Shown one piece after another: positions 1,646 to 59,780 of a stretch of DNA of 64,000 nucleotides. The DNA lies in contig NC_092640.1 in assembly GCF_039555335.1 (NCBI RefSeq), forward strand, positions 32,047,887 to 32,111,886. Direction: 5' to 3'. The number at the start of each line of letters is the position of its first letter. The first letter of the stretch is position 1. A model generated the notes under the pieces. The model was not told where the DNA came from and did no database searches. It worked only from the letters and a program-made list of their open reading frames with translations. The DNA comes from Amphiura filiformis. Taxonomy: Eukaryota > Echinodermata > Ophiuroidea > Amphilepidida > Amphiuridae. The position numbers and the translations under genes are program-made.

Positions 1646-2136
1646 GGCGGTTGATGTAACAGCAGACATTTTGTGACGTGGTATATCAAAAAGAGACACT
1701 TTTGGGCAGGTTATAAATTTTGAGTGTTTTACATATTTTAAATATAGAGATATTTTGCTCCACAACGCCGTTTTCCCCAATGAGGTCGGACATTCCTATC
1801 AGCGAAGATATTGAGTTCGTAAGTTATGGTATTATCAAATTGGAAAATATTATTGACAATGTTGAGAGTAAGAATTACCTCGAAAAATGTTTTTTAAAAA
1901 ATACAAGATGCCAGTTATATTCCGGTCTGAAACTATCAGACAATATTTTAAACATGATTAACATCACAAATTTGCAAGAAACCCAAACTGTGAAAAATAT
2001 CACCCCCGGGCAGATTTTTTGCAATTTCTCCATTACGACCCTGCCCAAAAGTGTCTCCTTTCGATATACCACGTCACATTTTAGTATTTATTTACCTTAA
2101 ACAAAACAAAAACGATCGAAAGAAGCAAATATAAGC

Positions 2137-2208
2137 GCCTCCATAGCTCAGTGGTTAGAGCACTGGTCTCGTAAACCAGTGGTCGTGAGTTCGACTCTCA
2201 CTGGAGGC
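2137..2208 (+). tRNA. tRNA-Thr (CGT)
   Basis: A 72-nt cloverleaf folds cleanly. The acceptor stem GCCTCCA pairs perfectly with TGGAGGC. The anticodon stem CTGGT/ACCAG encloses the loop CTCGTAA, giving anticodon CGT, which reads the threonine codon ACG. The T stem GTGAG/CTCAC encloses TTCGACT. Box A (TAGCTCAGTGG) is canonical, and box B lies in the T arm. No intron is seen. A TTCTTTT tract just downstream can serve as the polymerase III terminator. It faces the second tRNA-Thr copy at 2896-2967, and the two share flanking sequence. Confidence 0.93.
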
Positions 2209-2895
2209 TTATTCTTTTATGCTTAGTTATTATTTATCAATTTTCTAACAAGATGGGGAACAAAAAACAAGGCTCCTATTTTGTTAAAATGATCTCCCAA
2301 AAACATAATTATTTGACATTTGTACCTGGGCATTTGTAGGACAAGGAATTCTCATTTTGTTTTGTTTTCCTACGAATTGACAAAAAAGTCACAAAATTGG
2401 TACAATTGACAAAATGGGAGAAATTAAAACATGACGAATTGGATTTGAATGCATGTATGAATTACATTTTTTACGCAGTTTTTATAACTTATTCATTGTA
2501 GTCTATATATTCAGAAACAGCTAAAAATGACATGTGTGGGGAATATAGTTTGGGAGTGCCGGATCTCTAATGATGTCCTTATTAGTTCATTTCACAAATC
2601 AATATTGTGCGATTTCATAAAGAATAGATTCTTATTTGTTTTCCATAAAAGTGTTTTTAGTAATTTTCACTGATCAAATTATGTCCTCTTTCGAGCCAAC
2701 AAATGAAGTAAAACATACTGACAAAGAAAACTGCTTTTAATTCTATCCTTAGAGCTCCTTATCCTATGCCCAGGTACAAATGTCAAATATGTTTTTGGGA
2801 GATCATTGATAGTAACTTTGACAAAAAAAGCGTCTTTTTTTCTTCTTTTTTTCGCCACCTTGTCAGATAAATAATAAATAAGCATAAAAGAAGAA

Positions 2896-2967
2896 GCCTT
2901 CAGTGAGAGTCGAACTCACGACCCCTGGTTTACGAGACCAGTGCTCTAACCACTGAGCTATGGAGGC
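2896..2967 (-). tRNA. tRNA-Thr (CGT), second copy
   Basis: A near-identical copy of the upstream tRNA in opposite orientation. The anticodon arm is unchanged (anticodon CGT). The acceptor stem has one C-A mismatch because the 3' strand reads TGAAGGC instead of TGGAGGC, and the variable loop starts GGG instead of TGG. Boxes A and B are intact, and a TTCTTCTTTT tract follows. The mismatch could lower stability or mark early decay, so whether it is functional is uncertain. The palindromic flanks show it arose by inverted duplication. Confidence 0.88.
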
Positions 2968-3352
2968 GATTACATTTACTTCTTCCGATCGTTTTTGTTT
3001 TGTTTATAGTAAATACTAAAATGTGATGTGGAATATCGAAAGGAGACACTTTTGGGCAGGATCGTAAATGCAGAAATTGCAACAAATCTGCCGGGTGATT
3101 TTTTTTCACAATTTGGGTTTGTTGCAAATTTGTGATGTTATTAATGTTTAAAATATTTTCTGATAGTTTCAGACCGGAATATAACTGGCATCTTGTACTT
3201 TTTAAACATTTTTCAAGGTAATTCCTACTCTCAACATTGTCAATAATATTTTTAAAGGCCGATATCTCATCATTTTCAATTTTATAATACCATAACTTAC
3301 GAACTCAATATCTTCGCTGATAGGAATGTCCGATTTCATTGGGGTTGTCGGT

Positions 3353-18015: not shown

Positions 18016-19026
18016 CACTACGCAAAAAAAGTTTCTTTATGGTTAGGAAATTTACCCACTATTAAAATCTAGCGACTAATTTTGTACGTTTGCTAAATAA
18101 TCGCATGCGGGTGATTGTCCTGCGCATTTTGACACCTCAATCACTACTCTACGACACTCCTGAGAAAAGATATGAATGTTTAAGTAACACGAGGTCGAAA
18201 AATGAAAATTGCAAAAAGGCCTATTCAAATTTCCAGCATAAAAGAACACAAAAAACAACAAACATGCAGATAACATTGTTTGTTTAATTACTCAGCACAT
18301 TTCAGGCATCATACTGCCGCTTCCAACTTCACTTGAGATTAATGTCTTTCTTTACCCGTCTTTCAATACTTTGTGTGTCCACCGTTGGCTTCCCTTACAG
18401 CAGCCACGCGGCGTCTCATGCTCCTAATGAGGCGTCGAATGTTACCTTGCTCAACCCCGTTCCACTCGTTGATAACGATGCGACGCAATCCCACCAGAGT
18501 TGTATCTGCCTTTATCTTCTTGTTGACTCGTCTCTTGTGTTGATGACACAGTTTCTCCATGGGGTTAAGATCAAGGCTTCTGGAGGGCCACTCAAGTGTC
18601 TCAATTCCTTCTGCTTCCAGGAATGCAGCTGTAATTATGACCTGTTTTGAATCCCTTTTCCAAATCCATCTCTCAAAACGTAAATGTCTTAGTACCCATT
18701 CACCTTTGTCTTTGATCATTCATCTGCACAATAAGCAAATGATTATCCAACATGCATCAATTAAAATGCTTTAAATTAAAATTAAAAAGACGGGAATAAT
18801 CAGCTCTAAAACCATTGAATAGGCTTCCTTGCAATTTTCAGTTTTCGACCTCGTGTTACTTAAACATTCATATCTTTTCTCAGGAGTGACGTAGGGTAGT
18901 GATTGAGGTGTCAAAATGCGCAGGGCAATCTCCCGCATGCGATTATTTAGTAAACGTACAAAATTGGTCGCTAGATTTTAATAGTGGGTAAATTTCCTAA
19001 CCATAAAGAAACTTTTTTGCGTAGTT
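18016..19026 (-). mobile_element. Tc1-like transposon with 212-bp inverted ends, internally deleted
   Basis: The ends 'cactacgcaaaaaaagtttc' and its complement are flanked by TA on both sides (18014-18015, 19027-19028), the Tc1/mariner target. The inverted repeats run 18016-18228 and 18815-19026 with few differences. Between them is only the C-terminal part of a transposase on the minus strand. At 1,011 bp it is shorter than a full Tc1 element (~1.6 kb), so most of the gene has been lost. Confidence 0.92.
18363..18719 (-). pseudogene. Tc1-like transposase, C-terminal fragment
   Basis: A 118-residue open frame matches the end of Tc1-family transposases. It has the segment LEWPSRSLDLNPMEKL, which holds the third catalytic acid (the Glu of DD34E), then KRRV, WNGVEQGNIRRLIRSM and the terminal ANGGHTKY. 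The family protein is about 340 residues. The N-terminal DNA-binding region and the first two catalytic aspartates are absent here, so it cannot transpose itself. In the enzyme the domain performs cut-and-paste cleavage at the inverted ends. The frame's nominal start methionine is just the first in-frame ATG. The frame ends at the natural C terminus, and the stop is genuine. Both flanks are the element's own inverted repeats. Confidence 0.9.
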
Positions 19027-25462: not shown

Positions 25463-26056
25463 TGTGACCCGGCAGCACAAATGAGCCGTAAATTCCCTAA
25501 ATTGTATTCTGAGTTACGGTGTAAAATGTGTACGAAGGTAATATTCATCGGTAACTTCAGCTGGCCCGACATCCGTCTCATTTCGATAGTCAAAAAGTAA
25601 TCAATAATCCTATTGTTGAAGTGGATAATAAGCTTCTACCTTAGATGGCTATAGAACTTTTAATAGTTCTGGTCTTTGTTTGCTTATATTGCTAAATCCT
25701 GTTCAAGTGGTAGGTTACCAGGCATTGTATTTTGTACAGGTATGCATAACCAACAATTAACAATGAGAGAACTTTCTTAAACCTCGTTGACTTGGGGATG
25801 ATTTGAAATGACCGCCAATTATGACTGTTTGATATTTATTGCCAACAATGTGGAAAAAGAGACACATGTAAAAACGTAAAAAGCTATAATTTTGTTGAAG
25901 AAGCAAAGTTTAACAAACCATAACCCCGCTTCTGGATATCGTTTGAAGTCAAATGATATACAATTTTTAAGTTTATGATGTTTATTTTTTAAACACGAAA
26001 TAAAACAAAATTGACCGGGGGAGGAATTTACGGCTCATTCGCCGTGTACGGTCACA
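25463..26056. mobile_element. MITE, GTGACC...AATGAGCCGTAAATTCC ends, copy 1
   Basis: The left end (tatgtgacc...aatgagccgtaaattcc) is repeated inverted at the right end (ggaatttacggctcatt...ggtcacata). The body is nearly identical to 54656-55229 and related to 48287-48858, which is in the opposite orientation. There is no transposase frame. Confidence 0.88.
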
Positions 26057-28660: not shown

Positions 28661-29764
28661 GAAATGAGGAATATACTGACTCGAAGCATACAATAGGCAT
28701 TAGGCAGTGGAAGGCATTTTTTTTGGAATCATATGATCCTATTTATATTTGGTACACTGTACTAGTCTGGAAAAGAGTCACACAAGCTGCAAAGATCTGA
28801 TTGCTAAAAAACCAGGAATACAATCACGTAAATCTCAATATTAACTATATAAGTTACGATTTATCATAATTCCCATTTCATCAAGGATTTACCATTGGTC
28901 AGTTGCTACACAGTAATCGGGACAGTAATAGGGATTTATAACAGCAACACATCGTAAAGTAGAGTTACAATGAGTAAAACGCACTCGTAATTTTACAACG
29001 TTATACACATACTTGCGCTACGACGGGTTAAAAGTTTAGTGCAACACGCCCCTGATATAAAACAGGTGTAATGACCAATTAGTGTGGTCAAATTGACGTC
29101 ATACTTAAAATGAAACATAGCCCAAAATATATATGGCTATATCCACAAACTATACCCTGAGAGTATTTAGCGGAAACACTGCCACAGACGGTGGATCCCT
29201 TGTGACGATTTTGAGCCCACTGGCTATTATTACATATTCATGAGCACTTTCAGCACTTTTATTGATTTAGTGGTAAAAACAATGAAATAGAAAGGCTTTT
29301 CTGACACAATAAGCTTGTTTCCCCTCTCCGCCTACAACAAAATGAAGAAGAACAAAGAAAGTGATGAGTATTATGAGTTGCATTTTTCAAAAATTGCTTA
29401 CCACTCTGTGTAAATAACCCCAAAAGGATTTCTTTGAAATTAGGAAATGCTCCGAGTATGCAGATTATATGGGCAGGGAAAAGGATAATGATCATCAATA
29501 TATGCCTTTTGTTTGAAGAAATTTAGACATAATTTGAAAATACATTAGTCTTTAAGTTTAGAAATAGGCCCACCCACCACTCCCTAATCTTTTTGAACCT
29601 AACGAGCGAGAGAGAAGATAAATATTTTCGATCTCACAACATTCCCGGCATTATTTTATCTAGAGATGAGTTAATAAAGATATATTACCCCCGGGATATT
29701 ACGATTCTTTATGTCCTCCGGTTTTGGACTCCATTTCTTTTAAAGCGTAATGTTCTAGGCCATT
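28661..29764. other. No gene seen
   Basis: About 1.1 kb of AT-rich non-coding sequence. Confidence 0.45.
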
Positions 29765-29958
29765 GGGCTATTCCAATTAAAATCCATATGCCCCCTTATG
29801 CATGGAAGACATCTTTTTTAAAATCTCCCATACTGTCGGTGTAGATGTCAAATGGGATTACTTGAATGGTTGACTCCATTTAAAATCTACACTCCCTGTG
29901 TGGGAGATTAAGGTCTTTTCCTCCATAGGGTGTGTATGGATTTCAACTGCAATAGCCC
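29765..29958. mobile_element. Hairpin MITE, family A
   Basis: 194 bp, starting 'gggctattccaattaaaatc' and ending 'tttcaactgcaatagccc'. The inner part is palindromic as in the other copies. The left flank is ATT and the right flank ACT, close to the ATT/ATT seen at 50994 and 58556. It abuts the SINE that begins at 29962. Confidence 0.85.
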
Positions 29959-30049
29959 ACTAGCGAGCGCGGTGGCCGAGCGGAACGAGCTCCGACTCAA
30001 ATCGGAAGGTTGCAGGTTCGAGCCCCGGCGACGCCATCGTGTTGTGCCC

Positions 30050-46895: not shown

Positions 46896-48286
46896 TGGCT
46901 TGGTTTCCAAATACATAAAGTTTTCCTAAGTTTTCCTAATTAAAAGAGTCTCATTCACAGAGATTAGACACAAAGAGTCCCAGCTCAGAATTGCCATAAT
47001 GGTATACTAAATTCGCCATATTGGTTTTTGTCACATGATCAAAATCATGGCAAGTATCACACATTAGATGGCAGGTTAAAGAAATAAATTATATCTCCTG
47101 CATTTGTCAGCAACGTCCAGATATCAAATGAAAAGCTGCAACTCCAAGCTTAAAGGGTTACACATGCAGGTTTGCATATTATGTAGCATTTAGCATGCAT
47201 CAGCAGCACACAGCATTACATTCACAAACAGCACACACTAGTTTACAGGGCACATGACAAAATAATCACATTTTGCCCTTTAAGAAGGACACGCAAACAT
47301 AGCCGAGTCAGGACCCTTTCGGTTTCAGTACAGCTTTGTACAGATATGCCAGAAAACAACTTGTTTCCGCAATCAAATATTAATAATATCATTACTTTTA
47401 TGAAATTTAGTTAGTTGAATAGTATCACTGGTGGTTAAACTCTTGACATGTACAGTTTTATACCAATGTTATAGAGGAAGATTTACATACATCATAACCA
47501 TTGCCGTCCTAAATTGCATTAACGCATTAAGTAATATTCACATAGCACCAATTGTTTTTCTAGTTACAGATTAGAAACTTTAGCAATAGACAAATTACCT
47601 AGACCTCTGTGTGTCCATCCCAAACCATGGCAGTATATGAAGCCACATATCCATGGTGATTTTGACAGGATGACTGAGTTACCATGCACTGAAAAATAGA
47701 AGCCCCACATCGCGTACATGTCTCGTGCTCGTTTGCGTATTTGCCAAAATTAACGCTAAGCAGTGCCAACTTCACTACACATATCAAAGTCAGAGGTGCA
47801 GGTACTTGTTTACCTGGGACTTTAACCATATCATTCTTGGTGTCATATCTGACAAAATCATGAGAAATTAGTCTCAATGTTTTTACAATCAATTTTTTAC
47901 ATTATAAAGTACTAGTCCTTCACATATTTCATGCAAACCAAATTGAACTTGGCAAAAAACCCAAAAAGAAACAAGAATTTCAGCACTTTTTTGCCAATAC
48001 CTCATAATCAACATCAGCGTCACATCATGAGACTCATTCACCTTGATCGTGTCACATATGGAGCCCACTTGGAAACATTTTTAAACCAAAGAAACCAAGA
48101 AGTTCTTATAAATGTCGCTTTTTTCCTGACAGACAATTTCCACATGGAAGTAGGAGAGCTGCGATTTCCATAAACTAAATAACTACTGTACTGACAACAG
48201 ACAAGTGTAAAGTTCACTTGCAAAATGCCAAATATGCACTTGCTGCCTTGTGCCATTTTTAAAAATCAATCTTGTTTTTGATAATT
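46896..48286. other. No gene confirmed
   Basis: About 1.4 kb. A 97-residue minus-strand frame (47599-47892) contains a Cys/His-rich stretch, HETCTRCGASIFQC, but has no family match I know. The short minus-strand stretch ending GTTGATTATGAG at ~48007 resembles the PLOD penultimate exon end only superficially. Confidence 0.4.
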
Positions 48287-48858
48287 TGTGACCGTCCACG
48301 ATGAAACGCTCGTAAAGTCAGCCCCTGGTCAATTTAGTTTTCTTCCGTGTTTAGAAAATATATATCATATGCTTTACAATGATATATCATTTGACTTCAA
48401 ACGATATCCAGAAGTGGAGTTATGGTTTGAAACTTTGCTCCTTCAGCAAAAGGGTACAATATTTCGGTGCTACATTATTTCTCTTTTTACACATTGCTGG
48501 TATAAAATATCAAATGGTCATAATTGGCAGTCACTTCAAATCATCCCCAAGTCAACGAGGTTCAGGAATGTCCTCTCATTGTTAATTGTTGGTTAACCCA
48601 CCACTTGAACAGGATTTAGCCAACGCAAACAAAGATAAGAGCTATTTAGGAGTTCTATACATAAGTAGACGCTTTTTATCTTCTTCAACAATAGGATTAA
48701 TGATTGGTTTAAAAGGTGTTTGACTCTCAATAGCAAAATGAGAAACATGTTGCACCAACTTGAGATACATATGAATACAACCTTTATGCACATTTTGCAC
48801 TGTAACTCAGAATACAATTTGCCAACTTTATGAGCGGTTTGTGGTGGATGGTCACATT
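48287..48858. mobile_element. MITE, GTGACC family, copy 2 (inverted)
   Basis: Relative to 25463-26056 it is reversed and more diverged. It starts 'tgtgaccgtccacgatgaa' and includes 'tgacttcaaacgatatcc' and 'gtcaacgaggtt'. It ends '...gtggatggtcaca'. The 102-residue frame within it is incidental. Confidence 0.82.
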
Positions 48859-49631: not shown

Positions 49632-50993
49632 TTAAAATCTACAACACCAACTGAGAAGCCCACACTTGCACAGAAATCAAGTATTATTAAAGAAAAATAG
49701 TGAGTATGAATACAAAATCATCTACAAAATAATCAGATTTTAAGAAAGTTTACATGTTAGCACACATGGAAATATGTAGTGATACACAGGCAAGCATTTT
49801 ATGGCATACTAAAATAAATATATCTTGCACCAAAATTCTTTAACTACAAAACAAAATAACATGGAAAAAAAAGTAAACAAAAAACCCAGCCTGACAAATT
49901 GTAATTTTAATTTCCAATGCTCTCAAAATATTTTTCTTGATGGATTGTACATGCCACAAGTTCTCCATTACATCTATTTATGAGCTGTTTTTCCACTTAT
50001 GAGAGTTATTCTTTTTGTTTTAAATAAAATTTGTTTTCTCAATTTTCGAATAAAATATACACATACATATTAATTACACAAATCTTAATCTTTAAAAATA
50101 TTATGCAATCAACTGTGCATTGATCTAGAAATATTCTTGCCAAGTAAACAAGTATCTTGTACATATACCACTAGCACCAAGTGTGCAACCAGCGTTGGCG
50201 TTCCAGGGGAGGGGGGAGCAATAGATCTGGTCACTGAGAATTTGGTCCCAATTCGAGGGAAAGAGTACACAAAAGGGGCTTGTCATTTGTGTGAGAGACC
50301 ACAGAATTTGGTGACTTGGATTACAATGAGGGATTATGAGCTTTAGTCTGTGATCTCTTAGTGCATTTCACACCAAAAGAGAGTGGATTAACTTGAGTCC
50401 TTCCGAGTTTACCTCAAAAAATTTCTGAGGGCTTCCCTTTGGTTACGCCACTGATTAACACACAAAATGGGAACATTACCAGACAACAAGTTACCAAAAC
50501 TAAATTAAGGTCCAGGTGATGTCTATATGTTATTGAATAACTATATTTATTTTTCCCATTTCTTTCATAATTCCCCCAGATTTCTTTCATTTCTTGCCAT
50601 TTCTTACAACAGAGAACTTGTGGCTGACTCTTACTCTTACTCAACACATTTACAACCTAATCTACTGGACTCAAATTAAACTTATGACAGTATGACAAAA
50701 CAAAATACAAACAAAAATTCTGGATCATGTTAAATGTTGCATTCATTATTTTCAGTAACGTATTTACCATAAGGCACATTGAGTTGAATATTACATTTTT
50801 GTTAAAGGGGTACTTCATGATCAACAGCCTCATCCCCTACTTAATACTCCAAAGAGGTTGAGATTTTCATCACCATCAGAAATCTAGAAATACCTTATCT
50901 TTGTGTGCATAACCTTTCTTGCAGAATTGGTTGCTTGACTAAGGCATCAACCAAATTGTGTTTTGTCTATCCAAACAGAAATTGGGCTATTCC
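49632..50993. other. No gene seen
   Basis: About 1.4 kb of non-coding DNA downstream of the PLOD 3' end. Short frames only. Confidence 0.45.
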
Positions 50994-51260
50994 ATTTAAA
51001 ATCCACACTACCCCTGTGGAAGATTTTGGAAATATCTGCCACAGGGGGAGTATGAATTTCAAATGGAATGAATACATTAGCAGCTCCATTTGAAACTCAA
51101 CTTCCCTCAGTGAAAGATTCAGGTTGAATCTTTCTCAGAGGGTGTATGAAATTCAAATGGAGCTGCCTATCGATTCATTCCATTTGAAATTCACTCCCCT
51201 GTGGCAGATATTTCCAAAATCTTCCACAGGGGTAGTGTGGATTTCAAATGGAATAGCCCA
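50994..51260. mobile_element. Hairpin MITE, family A, long variant
   Basis: 267 bp of near-perfect foldback from 'gggctattccatttaaaatc' to 'gatttcaaatggaatagccc', flanked by ATT on both sides. The arms (about 120 bp) pair through 'cccctgtgg' and 'gatattt'. The variant at 60060-60293 is its closest relative. Confidence 0.9.
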
Positions 51261-51447: not shown

Positions 51448-51590
51448 AAATTAAAGTGCTGAATAGAAAAAAAAAAGTAAGAAATTCTAAACATACTATG
51501 ATTTCAATCAACCGACTGGGCTTTAAATTTGACCAATCATGTTCAATCTAATTACAATCCTAAAAAGTTTGACCTTTGACCTTTAACCTT

Positions 51591-51746
51591 TTAAGGGTCA
51601 ATAAAAGATACCATGATGTATCTTGTACCCCATGTTGTCTCCAAGCCTTCATGGTAGTGGGTTAGCCGTCCGGGATGCATGAGTGTGTATCCAACAGGAA
51701 GACCTATACAGCTGCAATTGTAGCGGATAAAGTGTGCTCCACCACC
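51591..51746 (-). CDS. PLOD: Procollagen lysyl hydroxylase, terminal exon, distal copy
   Basis: C-terminal 51 residues of a PLOD enzyme, which hydroxylates collagen lysines in the endoplasmic reticulum using Fe(II) and 2-oxoglutarate. The exon follows a splice acceptor ('ccaatttgcag') and opens in phase 0 with [13 protein letters not shown]. The core [13 protein letters not shown] holds the distal iron-binding histidine, and GTRY, ten residues later, holds the arginine that binds 2-oxoglutarate. It ends with the family's terminal VSFIDP and TAA. Family proteins are about 700 residues, so this is only the tail. Relative to the proximal copy it keeps the usual Arg in HPGR. AATAAA lies ~144 nt downstream. 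No earlier exon was recognised in the window. Alternatives: a second, alternatively spliced last exon, or a duplicate now used as 3' UTR. Confidence 0.88.
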
Positions 51747-51874
51747 CTGCAAATTGGATGAGAATAGTATAGAGGTTTATATTATAATACATGTAAATGT
51801 CATCATCATCAGTTGACTGAGGAGCAGGTGACCACAAGTTTCCTCCACCTGCTGTAGCATTATATTAAGACCTT

Positions 51875-52030
51875 CTAAGGGTCAACAAAAGACACCATGA
51901 TATATCTTGTACCCCATGTAGTCTCCAGTCCTTCATGGTAGTGGGTTAGCTGTCCGGGGTGCATGAGTGTGTATCCAACAGGGAGACCTATACAGCTGCA
52001 ATTGTAGCGGATAAATCTTGCTCCGCCACC
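51875..52030 (-). CDS. PLOD: Procollagen lysyl hydroxylase, terminal exon, proximal copy
   Basis: A near-duplicate of the exon at 51591-51746. It also encodes 51 residues in phase 0, after a strong acceptor ('cttcttcttttgcag'). It begins [13 protein letters not shown] and contains [20 protein letters not shown], so the iron-binding histidine and the 2-oxoglutarate arginine are present. It ends VSFVDP and TAG. By my count it differs from the distal copy at 14 of 156 bases: eight synonymous codons, three replaced residues and the stop. The usual HPGR arginine is Gln here. Being first after the upstream intron, it is the default exon, and using the distal copy requires skipping it. The product acts on collagen in the endoplasmic reticulum. 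PLOD identity is clear from these motifs, but which paralogue cannot be told. Confidence 0.9.
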
Positions 52031-52134
52031 CTGCAAAAGAAGAAGATGAGAATAGAGGTTTATATTTAATGCACATAGATGTCATCATCATCATCAGTTG
52101 ACTGCACAGCAGGCAACCGTAAGTTTCTTCCAAC

Positions 52135-52995
52135 TCTTACGATCTTTGGCTAGAGGTAACTGCTGCAATCTTGAGCCATTGTTACAAATTGGTCAGGCTG
52201 CAGCATTCAATAAAGATCACTAACCATGCACTGAACATACTGCAAAAGAAAAAGAAAAACAAAAAACAGTATTGTCCGGTTTCTCATCCTGTGTATATAC
52301 CGGGCACATTCTTTCACAGGTTCATTGTTTGGCAAGCCAAGTACATGATGAGAAGTTTATGGGCCCTAACTCGGATGACCAGAAGTCACATTGTACATAG
52401 TTTCAACAGACAACCATCCACCTAGATGTTGCAAAAGCATTCATTTTGTTTTCAGGAATAATGCTCTTGGATGAAAATGAAGTGGGATTTACATTTTAGA
52501 GCGAATTTCGCTCAGTTGGATTGATAATGGCATGCAGGCACTCTCTTTGATATAGTATTAGTGTTTCAACTACTTTTACCTAGAATGTAGCTGCAATCAT
52601 GCATGGTAGTAACTTTAAGATTGAAATGATATGCTGACTGATATTAATTTTATAAAGAGAGAAAATAAACAAATAGGTTGCTAAAAACCTTGTTGAATCA
52701 TTAACATGAACCGAAATGTAGCTTTAAATGTGCATACTTTCATCACACAATACAATATTATCCTATTTTAACTGAAGACCAAATTTAGAGACTGGTAAGT
52801 TCAATAACTCCCAATCCTAAACTCACAATTCTGCAATATAATTCTCAAACTAGTTTAAAGTATTCCATCTCTCATCGCACCATACTAATCCTGGTTATCT
52901 CTCCAACACATCAGTGATCAACCTGTACCTGCACAGACAAACCCAAACTATCAATTATTGAGGAAATTGACCCAAATATTGGCAACTTTTTCTTT
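52135..52995. other. Presumed PLOD intron; no exon seen
   Basis: Non-coding. I searched the minus strand by eye for the His-His-Asp segment of the PLOD catalytic domain and did not find it. Confidence 0.45.
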
Positions 52996-53205: not shown

Positions 53206-54247
53206 GTCAATATCAGTTGACATTAAGGATGTCCTATATCCACCCACCAGTAACCTGATACCACCAACTTGCATAGGAGAGAATTACGTATTACCAACAT
53301 GGAAATCTACCTTAATAGTTATAAATTTAGATGGACATCCCACCTCGTAATAAGTAATTATATACTACATCACTGAGGTCTTAAGAAATGTCAGTCAAGT
53401 TCTGCGCTGTTTCTAAATATAACTGTTGCAGAGCCCAAACTGTGATAGTATCAAAATGGCGACAAATTCGATGGGTACTTCACAGGCCACAGGAGTTAAA
53501 GCACTTTTCTAGTGGATATAAGAATCAGACCACTTCCTGCAGGACTGCAGCCATCATAACATATCAGTACTTAGATTGTCAGTGTCCAGTCTGTGGCAAA
53601 CACCCAGCTCTTTTTTTTTTCTGACTGGAAGCTACATGTATAGGTAATGGCTCTCTGCATTACATAGGACAAAACATCCGAGAGTAAATTGAATGAAAGC
53701 TTCCTCTCTCGGTAAGCAATTGGAATGTTTTGAGATGTGAATATTTTGTCTCTCAACAAAATATAGTGACTTACTTTAATATTTCATCACCACAACCGTG
53801 GGACTTCATCAAAATTTGCCTTCTTGTGAGGTACATGGCCTACCTGTCCGACTCCACTGGCATTCATTGAATTCGGATTTGAATGAGTTAATTGATCAAA
53901 TGTCTGTAATGTAAATGATTCTTTTCTCATATATTTATTTTTTTGCTTTGTGTGTTTGTGTTCTCGGCCACCGCTCTTGTCATGTCTTGTTTGTATGTTT
54001 GTTTGGTTTTTGAGTGTTTAATTTAATTGTCAGGTGGTGCAACATTTTCTCAAGCTTTGCTTTTAGTTGCACCTCCTCCATCTTGTTTTTATATAAAGTT
54101 GTTGGTGTTATTATGTATGTGATTTTTGATGGAAATAAATTGAATATGAATATGAGAATAGGAGCGGTAAAGCTAATCATGTGACTCACAGGAAAACCCG
54201 GAGTCACATGACTTGATGACCGGTTTTATACACCCCTACTTAAAACA
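53206..54247. other. Presumed PLOD intron; no exon confirmed
   Basis: A 47-codon minus-strand frame (53787-53930) is noted in the findings. Nothing else was recognised. Confidence 0.4.
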
Positions 54248-54390
54248 TTACCTTTACCTTCCACACAAGGAGTGTGAATTCCAAATGGGTTTACCTGAAT
54301 GTGTGACTCCATTTGAAATATACACCTGTGTGTGCAAGATTAAAGTTATGTCTTCAAAAGGGGGTGTATGGATTTCAACTGGAATAGCCT
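54248..54390. mobile_element. Hairpin MITE, family A, shortened
   Basis: Contains 'ccacacaaggagtgtgaatt', 'gactccatttgaaatataca' and the end 'ggatttcaactggaatagcc'. The outer left end is lost. Confidence 0.8.
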
Positions 54391-54655
54391 AAAAATAAAC
54401 ATAAAACATGGGACCAACATCTTATTACCATCCCTTCTGAATGATGAAGCCCTTCATTCACCCAATAATACATTATTCCACAGACCAAATGAAGCCAGAA
54501 TTAACTGAGTATTAACAAACCATGAATATTCATTAACAGTATGAATATTCATTAATATACAGAATCAGTACTCAACCTGCTCTGAATCAAGTCCCTATAG
54601 CCCTTTTCATCTCTTGATCCATTTGATGACAGAATGGGGTTGTAATGAATAATTT
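54391..54655. other. No gene seen
   Basis: Nothing recognised. Confidence 0.35.
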
Positions 54656-55229
54656 AGGGGTCATTATCTCCCTAAATTGTATTCTGAGTTACGGTGTAAA
54701 ATGTGTACGAAGGTCGTATTCATCGGTAACTTAAGCTGGCCCGACATTGATCTCATTTTGATACTGAAACACTAATCAATTATCCTATTGTTGAAGTGGA
54801 TAATAAGCTTCTACCTTAGATGGCTATAGAACTTTTAATAGCTCTGGTCTTTGTTTGCTTTTGCTAAATCCTGTTCAAGTGGTGGGTTACCAGTCATTGT
54901 ATTTTGTACAGGTATGCATAACCAACAATTAACAATGAGAGAACTTTCTTAAACCTCGTTGACTTGGGGATGATTTGAAATGACCGCCAATTATGACTGT
55001 TTGATATTTATTGCCAGCAATGTGGAAAAGAGAGACACACATAGAAACGAAAAAAGCTATAATTTTGTTGAAGGAGCAAAGTTTAACAAACCATAACCCC
55101 GCTTCTGGATATCGTTTGAAGTCAAATGATATACCATTTTTAAGTTTATGATGTTTATTTTTAAACACGAAATAAAACAAAATTGACCGGGGAGGAATTT
55201 ACGGCTCATTCGCCGTGAACGGTCACTAA
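54656..55229. mobile_element. MITE, GTGACC family, copy 3
   Basis: Very similar over its length to 25463-26056 (from 'ctaaattgtattctgagtta' to 'cggctcattcgccgtgaacg'). The outer left inverted repeat is missing, and the right end 'acggtcac' is present. Confidence 0.88.
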
Positions 55230-58150: not shown

Positions 58151-58555
58151 AACTGTTGTATCCAATGCAATAGCAAAGTTTTAAGTGGCCCAAGTTTTCC
58201 ATCCAAGCAGAATTTAATTGTGTGTAGTTAACTAAAAAGCACTTGTAGTCCTCAAATGCACATAAGTATCATTAAGCGCATGTTAACTGACCTCATTCAA
58301 AATAGTATGTGCTATACACTAATGTATGCACATTTTTAAGAGAAATTGTGTTTTAGTTTAGCTTGCTTTTTATCATAATTATCAAACAGTATAACATTAA
58401 CGTCATACGTATATCACTAACTTGCATATTTCCCCCTTTTTCACTGCTTACAATCTATGCTACTACTAATTATATTAAAGCTAAATTAATCTTCCAACTA
58501 GGTGAGAATGGTTTCCTGACCTAGTGAAGTTAAGTCAATTAGGTGCCAATATATT
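58151..58555. other. No gene seen
   Basis: Nothing recognised. Confidence 0.4.
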
Positions 58556-58743
58556 GGGCTATTCCACTTGAAATCCATACACCCCCTGTGGAAGACACGA
58601 CCTTAATCTCCCACACAGGGAGTGTGATTATCAAATGGGGTTACCTGAATGATACGGTGACTCCATTTGAAATCTACACTCCCTGTGTGGAAGATTAAGG
58701 TCATGTATTCCAGGGGGTGTATGGATTTCAACAGGAATAGCCC
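58556..58743. mobile_element. Hairpin MITE, family A, full length
   Basis: 188 bp from 'gggctattccacttgaaatc' to 'gatttcaacaggaatagccc', flanked by ATT on both sides. It is the best example of the ~190-bp form. Confidence 0.9.
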
Positions 58744-58865
58744 ATTGCCGTAATAGTTTACTCCTATTTGGTGACAATGATATCATAATTGGGCCTACCT
58801 CAGCAGGCGATTTAGTGGTTGTCATCCAGGGAGCCAGCTTCAAGTGGCTTATGCATTTTGTGTAT
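58744..58865. other. Short gap
   Basis: Nothing recognised. Confidence 0.3.
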
Positions 58866-59780
58866 CTGTGGTCCCATCATGACCCAAGCGTGTCTCTACA
58901 CAGAACAACAGTTTAACCAAGCAAACAAACAAATAAACAAAGAACCTTCACCTTGCATAGCACAAAAACATCTCTTGATTCAATGCAATGCAATGACCTA
59001 TTACTCAGGCTCCACGCATCTACTTCATTTATCGTTTTGTTTGAGCCTGTCCCATTAGGACCCAAGTGTGTCTCTGCACTGAACAACACTTTAGCCAAGC
59101 AAACAAACAAATAAACAAAGAACCTTCACCTTGCATAACACATGTTTCTCTATTCACTGCAATGTAATGACCTATTACTCAGACCAGCATCTACTTCATT
59201 TATCATTTTGTTTGATCCAGGTCCCATTAAGACCCCCACATGTCTCTGCATGGAACAACAGCTTAAGCAAGTAAGCAAACAAATAAATGAAGTACCTTCA
59301 CCTTGGGCAACACAAAAACAGGTCTCTATTCAATGCAATGACCTATTCTATTACTCAGGCTCCGCGCATCTAGTTCATTTATCATTTTGTTTAAGCTTGG
59401 TCCCATTAGGACCCAAGCGTATCTCTGCACAGAACAGTTTAACCAAGCAAAGAAACAAATAAACAAAGAACCTTCAGATTGCATAACACATGTTTCTATA
59501 TTCACAGCAATGTAATGACCAATGTAATTACTCAGACCAGCATCTAGTTCATTTATCATTTTGTTTGAGCCTGGTCTCATTAGGAGGACCCAAGCGTGTG
59601 TCCGCATATAGCAACTTGCACTGTATGCAGTGAGTGACCTTAGCTTTGAATGAAAATAATGATTTTAACAAGCAAACAAACAAATAAAAAAAGGATCTTC
59701 ACCTTGTGTAGCATACAATTCAATGCAATGACCTATTACTCAGATCAGCATCTAGTTCATTTATCACTTTGTTTGGTCAA
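58866..59780. repeat. Minisatellite, ~176-bp unit, about 5.5 copies
   Basis: The word 'gtcccat(t/c)a' (gtctcat in the last unit) recurs at 58871, 59049, 59221, 59400 and 59574 (spacings 178, 172, 179, 174). Each unit carries 'aagcaaacaaacaaataaa', 'ccttcacctt', 'atgcaatgacctatta' and 'ttcatttatcattttgtttg'. A truncated sixth unit follows. The open frames of up to 106 residues on both strands here are repeat artefacts. Confidence 0.93.

Follow-up and report, generated by a model that had tools for sequence, protein, structure and literature searches.

Does one lysyl hydroxylase gene of the ophiuroid Amphiura filiformis end in either of two catalytic exons? The question is raised by a 64,000-nt stretch of contig NC_092640.1 (NCBI RefSeq assembly GCF_039555335.1, positions 32,047,887 to 32,111,886 of the forward strand), hereafter the window, whose minus strand carries two 156-nt last exons of the PLOD lysyl hydroxylase type, copy 1 upstream and copy 2 downstream of it (Table 1). 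Each exon is preceded by a CAG acceptor (the letters just before it read ...TTTTGCAG or ...TTTGCAG), is read in frame from its first base and closes with a stop codon. Both translations follow a single pattern, GGGA(R/H), 21 residues, (Q/R), 21 residues, (V/I)DP and then the stop, in which the alternatives, given as copy 1/copy 2, are the changed residues at positions 5, 27 and 49. An earlier note on this DNA had credited each copy with an acceptor, a phase-0 start, the catalytic His and Arg and a stop, and translation together with alignment confirmed this anatomy in both. The distance of 284 bp that it gave is the spacing from one exon start to the next; the gap between the two exons is 128 nt.

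The exons are part of a tandem unit with a period of 284 nt, each copy comprising about 100 nt of intron end plus the exon, with 85.7% identity over 265 aligned columns. Searched against the window with blastn, the unit retrieves its other copy at 2e-73 and then nothing better than E = 0.98, so the similarity of the pair is far beyond chance. We considered whether the exon pair might be a dispersed repeat and rejected this; within the window, the unit matches its own other copy alone. The tandem duplication of the PLOD last exon is real, diverged and, apparently, constrained.

Table 1. Positions in the window of the two last exons and of the elements around them.
Feature	Position	Strand	Observations
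Copy 1, last PLOD coding exon (proximal)	51875..52030	-	51 codons + TAG; R5, Q27, V49; LH3 match E = 2.9e-20
Copy 2, last PLOD coding exon (distal)	51591..51746	-	51 codons + TAA; H5, R27, I49; LH3 match E = 6.1e-20
Duplicated 3' part of the intron before copy 1	52031..52132	-	acceptor 18/20 pyrimidines; next upstream AG at 73 nt
Duplicated part of the intron before copy 2	51747..51847	-	acceptor 14/20 pyrimidines; next upstream AG at 72 nt
Junction of the two units, directly after the copy-1 stop	51848..51874	-	only variant hexamers between the copies
AATAAA	51442..51447	-	sole one in the scanned 52030-50701; begins 144 nt after the stop of copy 2; both messages presumably use it

Homology identifies the exons as lysyl hydroxylase sequence. 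In phmmer searches, each copy matched human LH3/PLOD3 over all 51 of its residues (E = 3e-20 for copy 1 and 6e-20 for copy 2) and also matched L230 of mimivirus (E = 3e-9 and 7e-9); copy 1 is 71% identical to LH3. Both fragments score below the curated cut-off of the Pfam family 2OG-FeII_Oxy (18.6 and 19.7 versus 23 bits). In LH3 numbering (chain 8zgc_A), the exon spans residues 688-738, which puts His719, Arg729, Leu715, Arg714 and Cys691 where the available text of PMC6082870 has them; that text gives His719 as an iron-binding His and Arg729 as the 2-oxoglutarate Arg. Compared with the LH3/PLOD3 and L230 domains (PMC6082870, PMC5802723), both copies keep the equivalents of the second iron His, the 2-oxoglutarate Arg and the dimer-interface Leu, as the invariant columns H32, R42 and L28, but they differ from LH3 at the position of Cys691 (codon 4, in the 2-oxoglutarate pocket), which is Ala in both, and at that of Arg714, which is Gln in copy 1. 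Cys691 is described as fully conserved among LH isoforms (PMC6082870, available text), and human LH1-3 share other conserved pocket side chains that are not maintained in invertebrate LHs (PMC5802723, available text); given this variation, Ala at the Cys691 position is no argument against PLOD membership. When an alignment of the two copies with the LH3 segment was searched against viral contigs and against contigs of non-eukaryote genomes, it returned 8 and 16 pattern matches, respectively, and none was confirmed in either set.

Comparison of the two copies reveals how they have changed since the duplication. The exons differ at 14 of 156 nt and are identical at the other 142. Differences fall in 11 of the 51 sense codons, eight of them synonymous and three amino-acid-changing, as well as in the stop codon, and codon 5 (AGA/CAC) by itself accounts for three nucleotide changes. 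This recount agrees with the tally in the earlier note, which had also called for a dN/dS test between the copies; by the Nei-Gojobori method, dS is 0.288 and dN 0.039, and at a ratio of 0.136 both copies look constrained. The statement that the flanking intron copies diverge more likewise holds, with a value that varies with where the duplicated unit is taken to begin: with a wider boundary, 23 of 104 aligned columns are mismatched and 5 more are gaps (Jukes-Cantor 0.262), and with the blastn boundary 19 of 99 are mismatched, again with 5 gap columns (0.222), so that Fisher tests against the exon give p = 0.004 and p = 0.02, respectively. Because a dS of 0.29 lies near the intron divergence of 0.22-0.26, synonymous and intron sites appear to be of roughly the same age, and the amino-acid-changing sites alone to have been held back. 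Exon-limited gene conversion could in principle have kept the exons similar, an explanation that we rejected given that synonymous divergence is as high as that of the intron.

The same values speak to whether the pair might be an assembly artefact in which a single last exon is represented by two divergent haplotypes joined head to tail. Assemblies of highly heterozygous animals do contain false tandem copies of this kind, yet the junction has no run of N, as is true of the whole window, and synonymous and intron divergence of about 19-29%, with several gap columns, is far above ordinary allelic divergence. We regard such a misjoin as very improbable.

A low pairwise ratio can come from constraint on one copy alone, and for this reason we ran simulations that required 7-10 synonymous differences and scored the runs with the observed nonsynonymous count or a lower one, in a model of nucleotide substitutions. 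With one copy neutral throughout and the other at an omega of 0.05 or 0, 0.6-1.3% of runs fit the data (kappa 1, 2 and 4); when neither copy was constrained, 0-0.1% did so; and when the free copy had to retain an intact frame while the other evolved at omega 0.05, the fit was 0.35-0.58% (kappa 2, with either copy as the ancestral one). A pseudo-exon from the start is, on these fits of 0.35-1.3%, unlikely. More recent freedom is easier to accommodate: a copy that was free over the final 75% of its history fits in 3-4% of runs, one free over the final 50% in 10-11% and one free over the final 25% in 38-42%. So is unequal constraint, where omega values of 0.5 and 0 fit in 16-25% of runs and 0.3 and 0 in 53-62%, as compared with 62-70% when both copies are held at 0.13. 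One copy may thus have been lost recently or constrained less than the other, and the test is a weak one because it has 51 codons to work with. The earlier note had suggested that both copies were kept under selection: the ratio of 0.136 and the poor fit of lifelong freedom stand behind this, and the fit of freedom over half the history keeps it from being the sole reading.

From these results follows a rival account, in which the duplication is real and one copy is used now, while the other was partly constrained in the past or has recently been silenced and at present lies in unspliced intron or 3' UTR. The runs in which a copy was freed for the last half or quarter of its history are in its favor, as is the weaker acceptor of copy 2 (14 versus 18 pyrimidines of 20), but freedom throughout seldom fits, and neither copy has lost its frame, its acceptor-like site or its stop. 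On balance, we think present-day use of a single copy rather unlikely.

Judged from sequence features, both copies have plausible acceptors. We compared them by the pyrimidine content of positions -24 to -5 and by the distance to the next upstream AG (Table 1); among the 1503 YAG sites of the strand, the two acceptors included, 0.07% are equal to or better than copy 1 on both measures and 0.7% are equal to or better than copy 2. With its weaker pyrimidine tract and its distal position, copy 2 may seldom be used. On the minus strand at 52240-52267, some 210 nt before copy 1, lies a further strong acceptor-like stretch, a long T-rich tract that ends in TTTTGCAG; no recognisable PLOD sequence follows it, and it might serve as a third splice site or act as a decoy.

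How the messages would end can be read, with due caution, from the polyadenylation signals. A search for eight hexamers found only variants between the copies (AATATA at 51866 and 51783, TATAAA at 51781), and the sole AATAAA of the scanned interval follows copy 2, which points to two 3' splice sites in competition, with a single poly(A) site, as the likeliest arrangement. Most likely, then, the choice is between alternative 3' splice sites that share a poly(A) site and not between two terminal exons with ends of their own, and the copy-1 message probably carries copy 2 within its 3' UTR. The earlier proposition that the copies are usable only as alternatives is accordingly valid for the protein and not necessarily for the mRNA. 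Many tandem duplicated exon events in human genes use separate terminal exons, each with its own 3' end, and in this respect the PLOD pair differs from them, one common poly(A) site being likelier here.

The exon pair stands by itself in the window. Neither a six-frame scan for a small set of PLOD motifs nor tblastn with queries taken from LH3, L230 and the window itself revealed another PLOD exon in the 64 kb; the best tblastn matches outside the pair (E = 0.13 for LH3 629-715, 0.44 for L230 and 0.72 for the window exon) include no credible exon. The penultimate exon was sought with the 37-residue LH3 segment that precedes the last exon, and the best tblastn match in the window had E = 0.26. 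In LH3, the HxD iron motif lies just before the segment that matches the duplicated exon; the six-frame motif search of the window did not find an exon with this motif, and HHD is present only in unrelated contexts. Exons for the glycosyltransferase domains would be situated further upstream still. As there is no upstream PLOD exon in the 11.97 kb to the window edge, either the pair is detached or the last intron spans 11.97 kb or more. The earlier note had spoken of a PLOD gene: last-exon homology to LH3 supports the name, whereas the gene itself, and with it the attachment of the exon pair, is something that we infer.

Were the pair detached, it would be an orphan fragment within a partial PLOD duplicate, with no working gene attached to it here, and the signature of selection would have been inherited from the parent locus, where the exon doubling itself would have arisen. 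This is what the lack of a further detectable PLOD exon in the 64 kb, the weak best match of the 37-residue segment and the unrelated settings of HHD might suggest. The frames, however, show no damage, and no intervening gene was seen: 22 of the 44 open reading frames of at least 60 aa in 52.1-64 kb were scanned against Pfam and none reached a curated cut-off, a DUF1996 match in one of this region's frames (E = 0.009, below the Pfam cut-off) being taken as chance. In addition, sequence with further copies in the window makes up about 22.5% of 52.1-64 kb, a share compatible with a long last intron, and an intron of at least 12 kb is plausible in a genome so laden with repeats. We consider an orphan fragment improbable.

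Elsewhere in the window, several repeats and tRNA genes were observed. A tandem array with a period of 172 occupies 58869-59606 (about 4.2 copies, 76% matches), and a dispersed repeat family with similar open frames is found at 25494-26055, 48279-48820 and 54669-55226, two of its copies being 95% identical. Short dispersed elements at 50991-51252, 54228-54392, 58553-58748, 29762-29959 and 4-159 have related ends around CCATTTGAAAT and CCACAGGGG and seemingly form a non-autonomous, MITE-like family, in which we place 50991-51252 by inference. An open frame on the minus strand at 18366-18719 has a weak match to a DDE_3 transposase (E = 2e-4, below the Pfam cut-off). Two tRNA-Thr(CGT) genes lie in inverted orientation at 2137-2209 (+) and 2895-2967 (-), with similar open frames beside them at 1717-2100 (+) and 2930-3304 (-). 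The frame at 2930-3304 weakly matches DUF5854 (E = 5e-4, short of the cut-off), and the region looks like an inverted repeat that holds the tRNA genes.

Overall, we favor the view that the tandem-duplicated last exon probably allows one upstream donor to be joined to either acceptor, yielding two full-length PLOD forms. In this view, a 284-bp tandem duplication in a PLOD lysyl hydroxylase gene would have copied its last coding exon together with the end of the last intron, and the gene's remaining exons would lie beyond the window edge (>64000). Joined to copy 1, the donor would give the form that has Gln where LH3 has Arg714, with copy 2 left in the 3' UTR; joined to copy 2, it would give the Arg form, and both messages would end at one poly(A) site after copy 2. 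Of the two enzyme forms differing at three positions that had been proposed earlier, the three residue changes are counted, and use of both acceptors is predicted from sequence.

What the two forms might do depends on where they differ. Position 27 corresponds to LH3 714 and adjoins the dimer-interface Leu715; copy 2 has the same Arg as LH3 there, copy 1 has Gln, and L230 has Lys. In LH3, the substitution R714N, which adds a glycan, shifts the protein toward the monomer and abolishes hydroxylase activity (PMC6082870, available text); this effect may be due to the glycan, so R714N points to the site without showing what Gln would do there. Position 5 (LH3 692) is R in copy 1, H in copy 2 and E in L230, and the changes at positions 5 and 49 are likely mild. 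Of the three sites where the copies differ, LH3 disagrees with copy 1 at one and with copy 2 at two, so neither copy is clearly the decaying one, and the fact that each has at least one departure also counts toward use of a single copy. With two full-length hydroxylases three residues apart, and one changed residue beside Leu715, modest tuning of dimerisation or collagen binding would be the likeliest consequence rather than loss of activity.

A bolder extension, which we put forward only tentatively and hold to be doubtful, is that the doubled exon acts as a regulated switch of lysyl hydroxylase assembly, generating two PLOD forms and mixed dimers with a different grip on collagen. Use of the proximal acceptor would then put Gln in place of a basic residue beside the dimer-locking Leu and, at the same time, Arg in place of His beside the 2-oxoglutarate pocket.

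Splice variants are familiar among collagen hydroxylases, through exon 13A of PLOD2 (LH2a/LH2b) and exons 9a/9b of P4HA1, the latter being homologous exons and the former a cassette exon, not one of two homologous alternatives. Those are internal exons, whereas the pair described here is a catalytic last exon. The architecture itself is already known, and the closest case that we found is the alternative oxidase (AOX) of oysters, whose exon 10 is tandemly duplicated in Crassostrea virginica and C. gigas (PMC5589949, available text). As in the PLOD pair, the last coding exon is doubled in tandem with a stop for each copy, and the choice of an alternative 3' splice site gives a long message with both copies and a short one with the second only, the same architecture that we propose for PLOD; in C. 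virginica the two proteins are of equal length, as predicted here (PMC5589949). The oyster copies are more diverged, with DNA similarity of 63.5% and 65.9% and with 15 and 14 of 41 residues differing, as against 142 of 156 nt identical and 3 of 51 residues differing in the PLOD pair, which belongs to another enzyme. Messages of both kinds have been demonstrated for oyster AOX (PMC5589949), whereas the PLOD pair is known here from sequence alone. Human tandem duplicated exon substitution events, 77 of 236 of which swap C-terminal regions and most of whose substitutions are conservative, resemble it in offering homologous alternative ends, and the main text of PMC9741552, which reports them, contains neither the term PLOD nor P4HA. 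Our literature searches, with most subscription journals outside their scope, found nothing on a lysyl hydroxylase with a tandem exon duplication: the sole match for lysyl hydroxylase with duplicated exon concerns tenascin-X, those for PLOD with alternative last exon concern only human cancer splicing or hypoxia, and no paper among the matches listed describes a duplicated PLOD exon or a splice-controlled switch of PLOD assembly.

If both ends are used, one PLOD gene would give rise to two catalytic tails three residues apart, which amounts to a nearly minimal pair of natural mutants at the site of LH3 Arg714. A collagen-modifying enzyme would then join the genes with tandemly duplicated last exons, as a simple example of a proximal acceptor and a distal one that share an end and both remain in use. 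If both messages are real, the finding would gain weight from the Gln/Arg difference next to the dimer Leu, and the switch, if true, would mean that splicing controls a change at the enzyme's quaternary interface.
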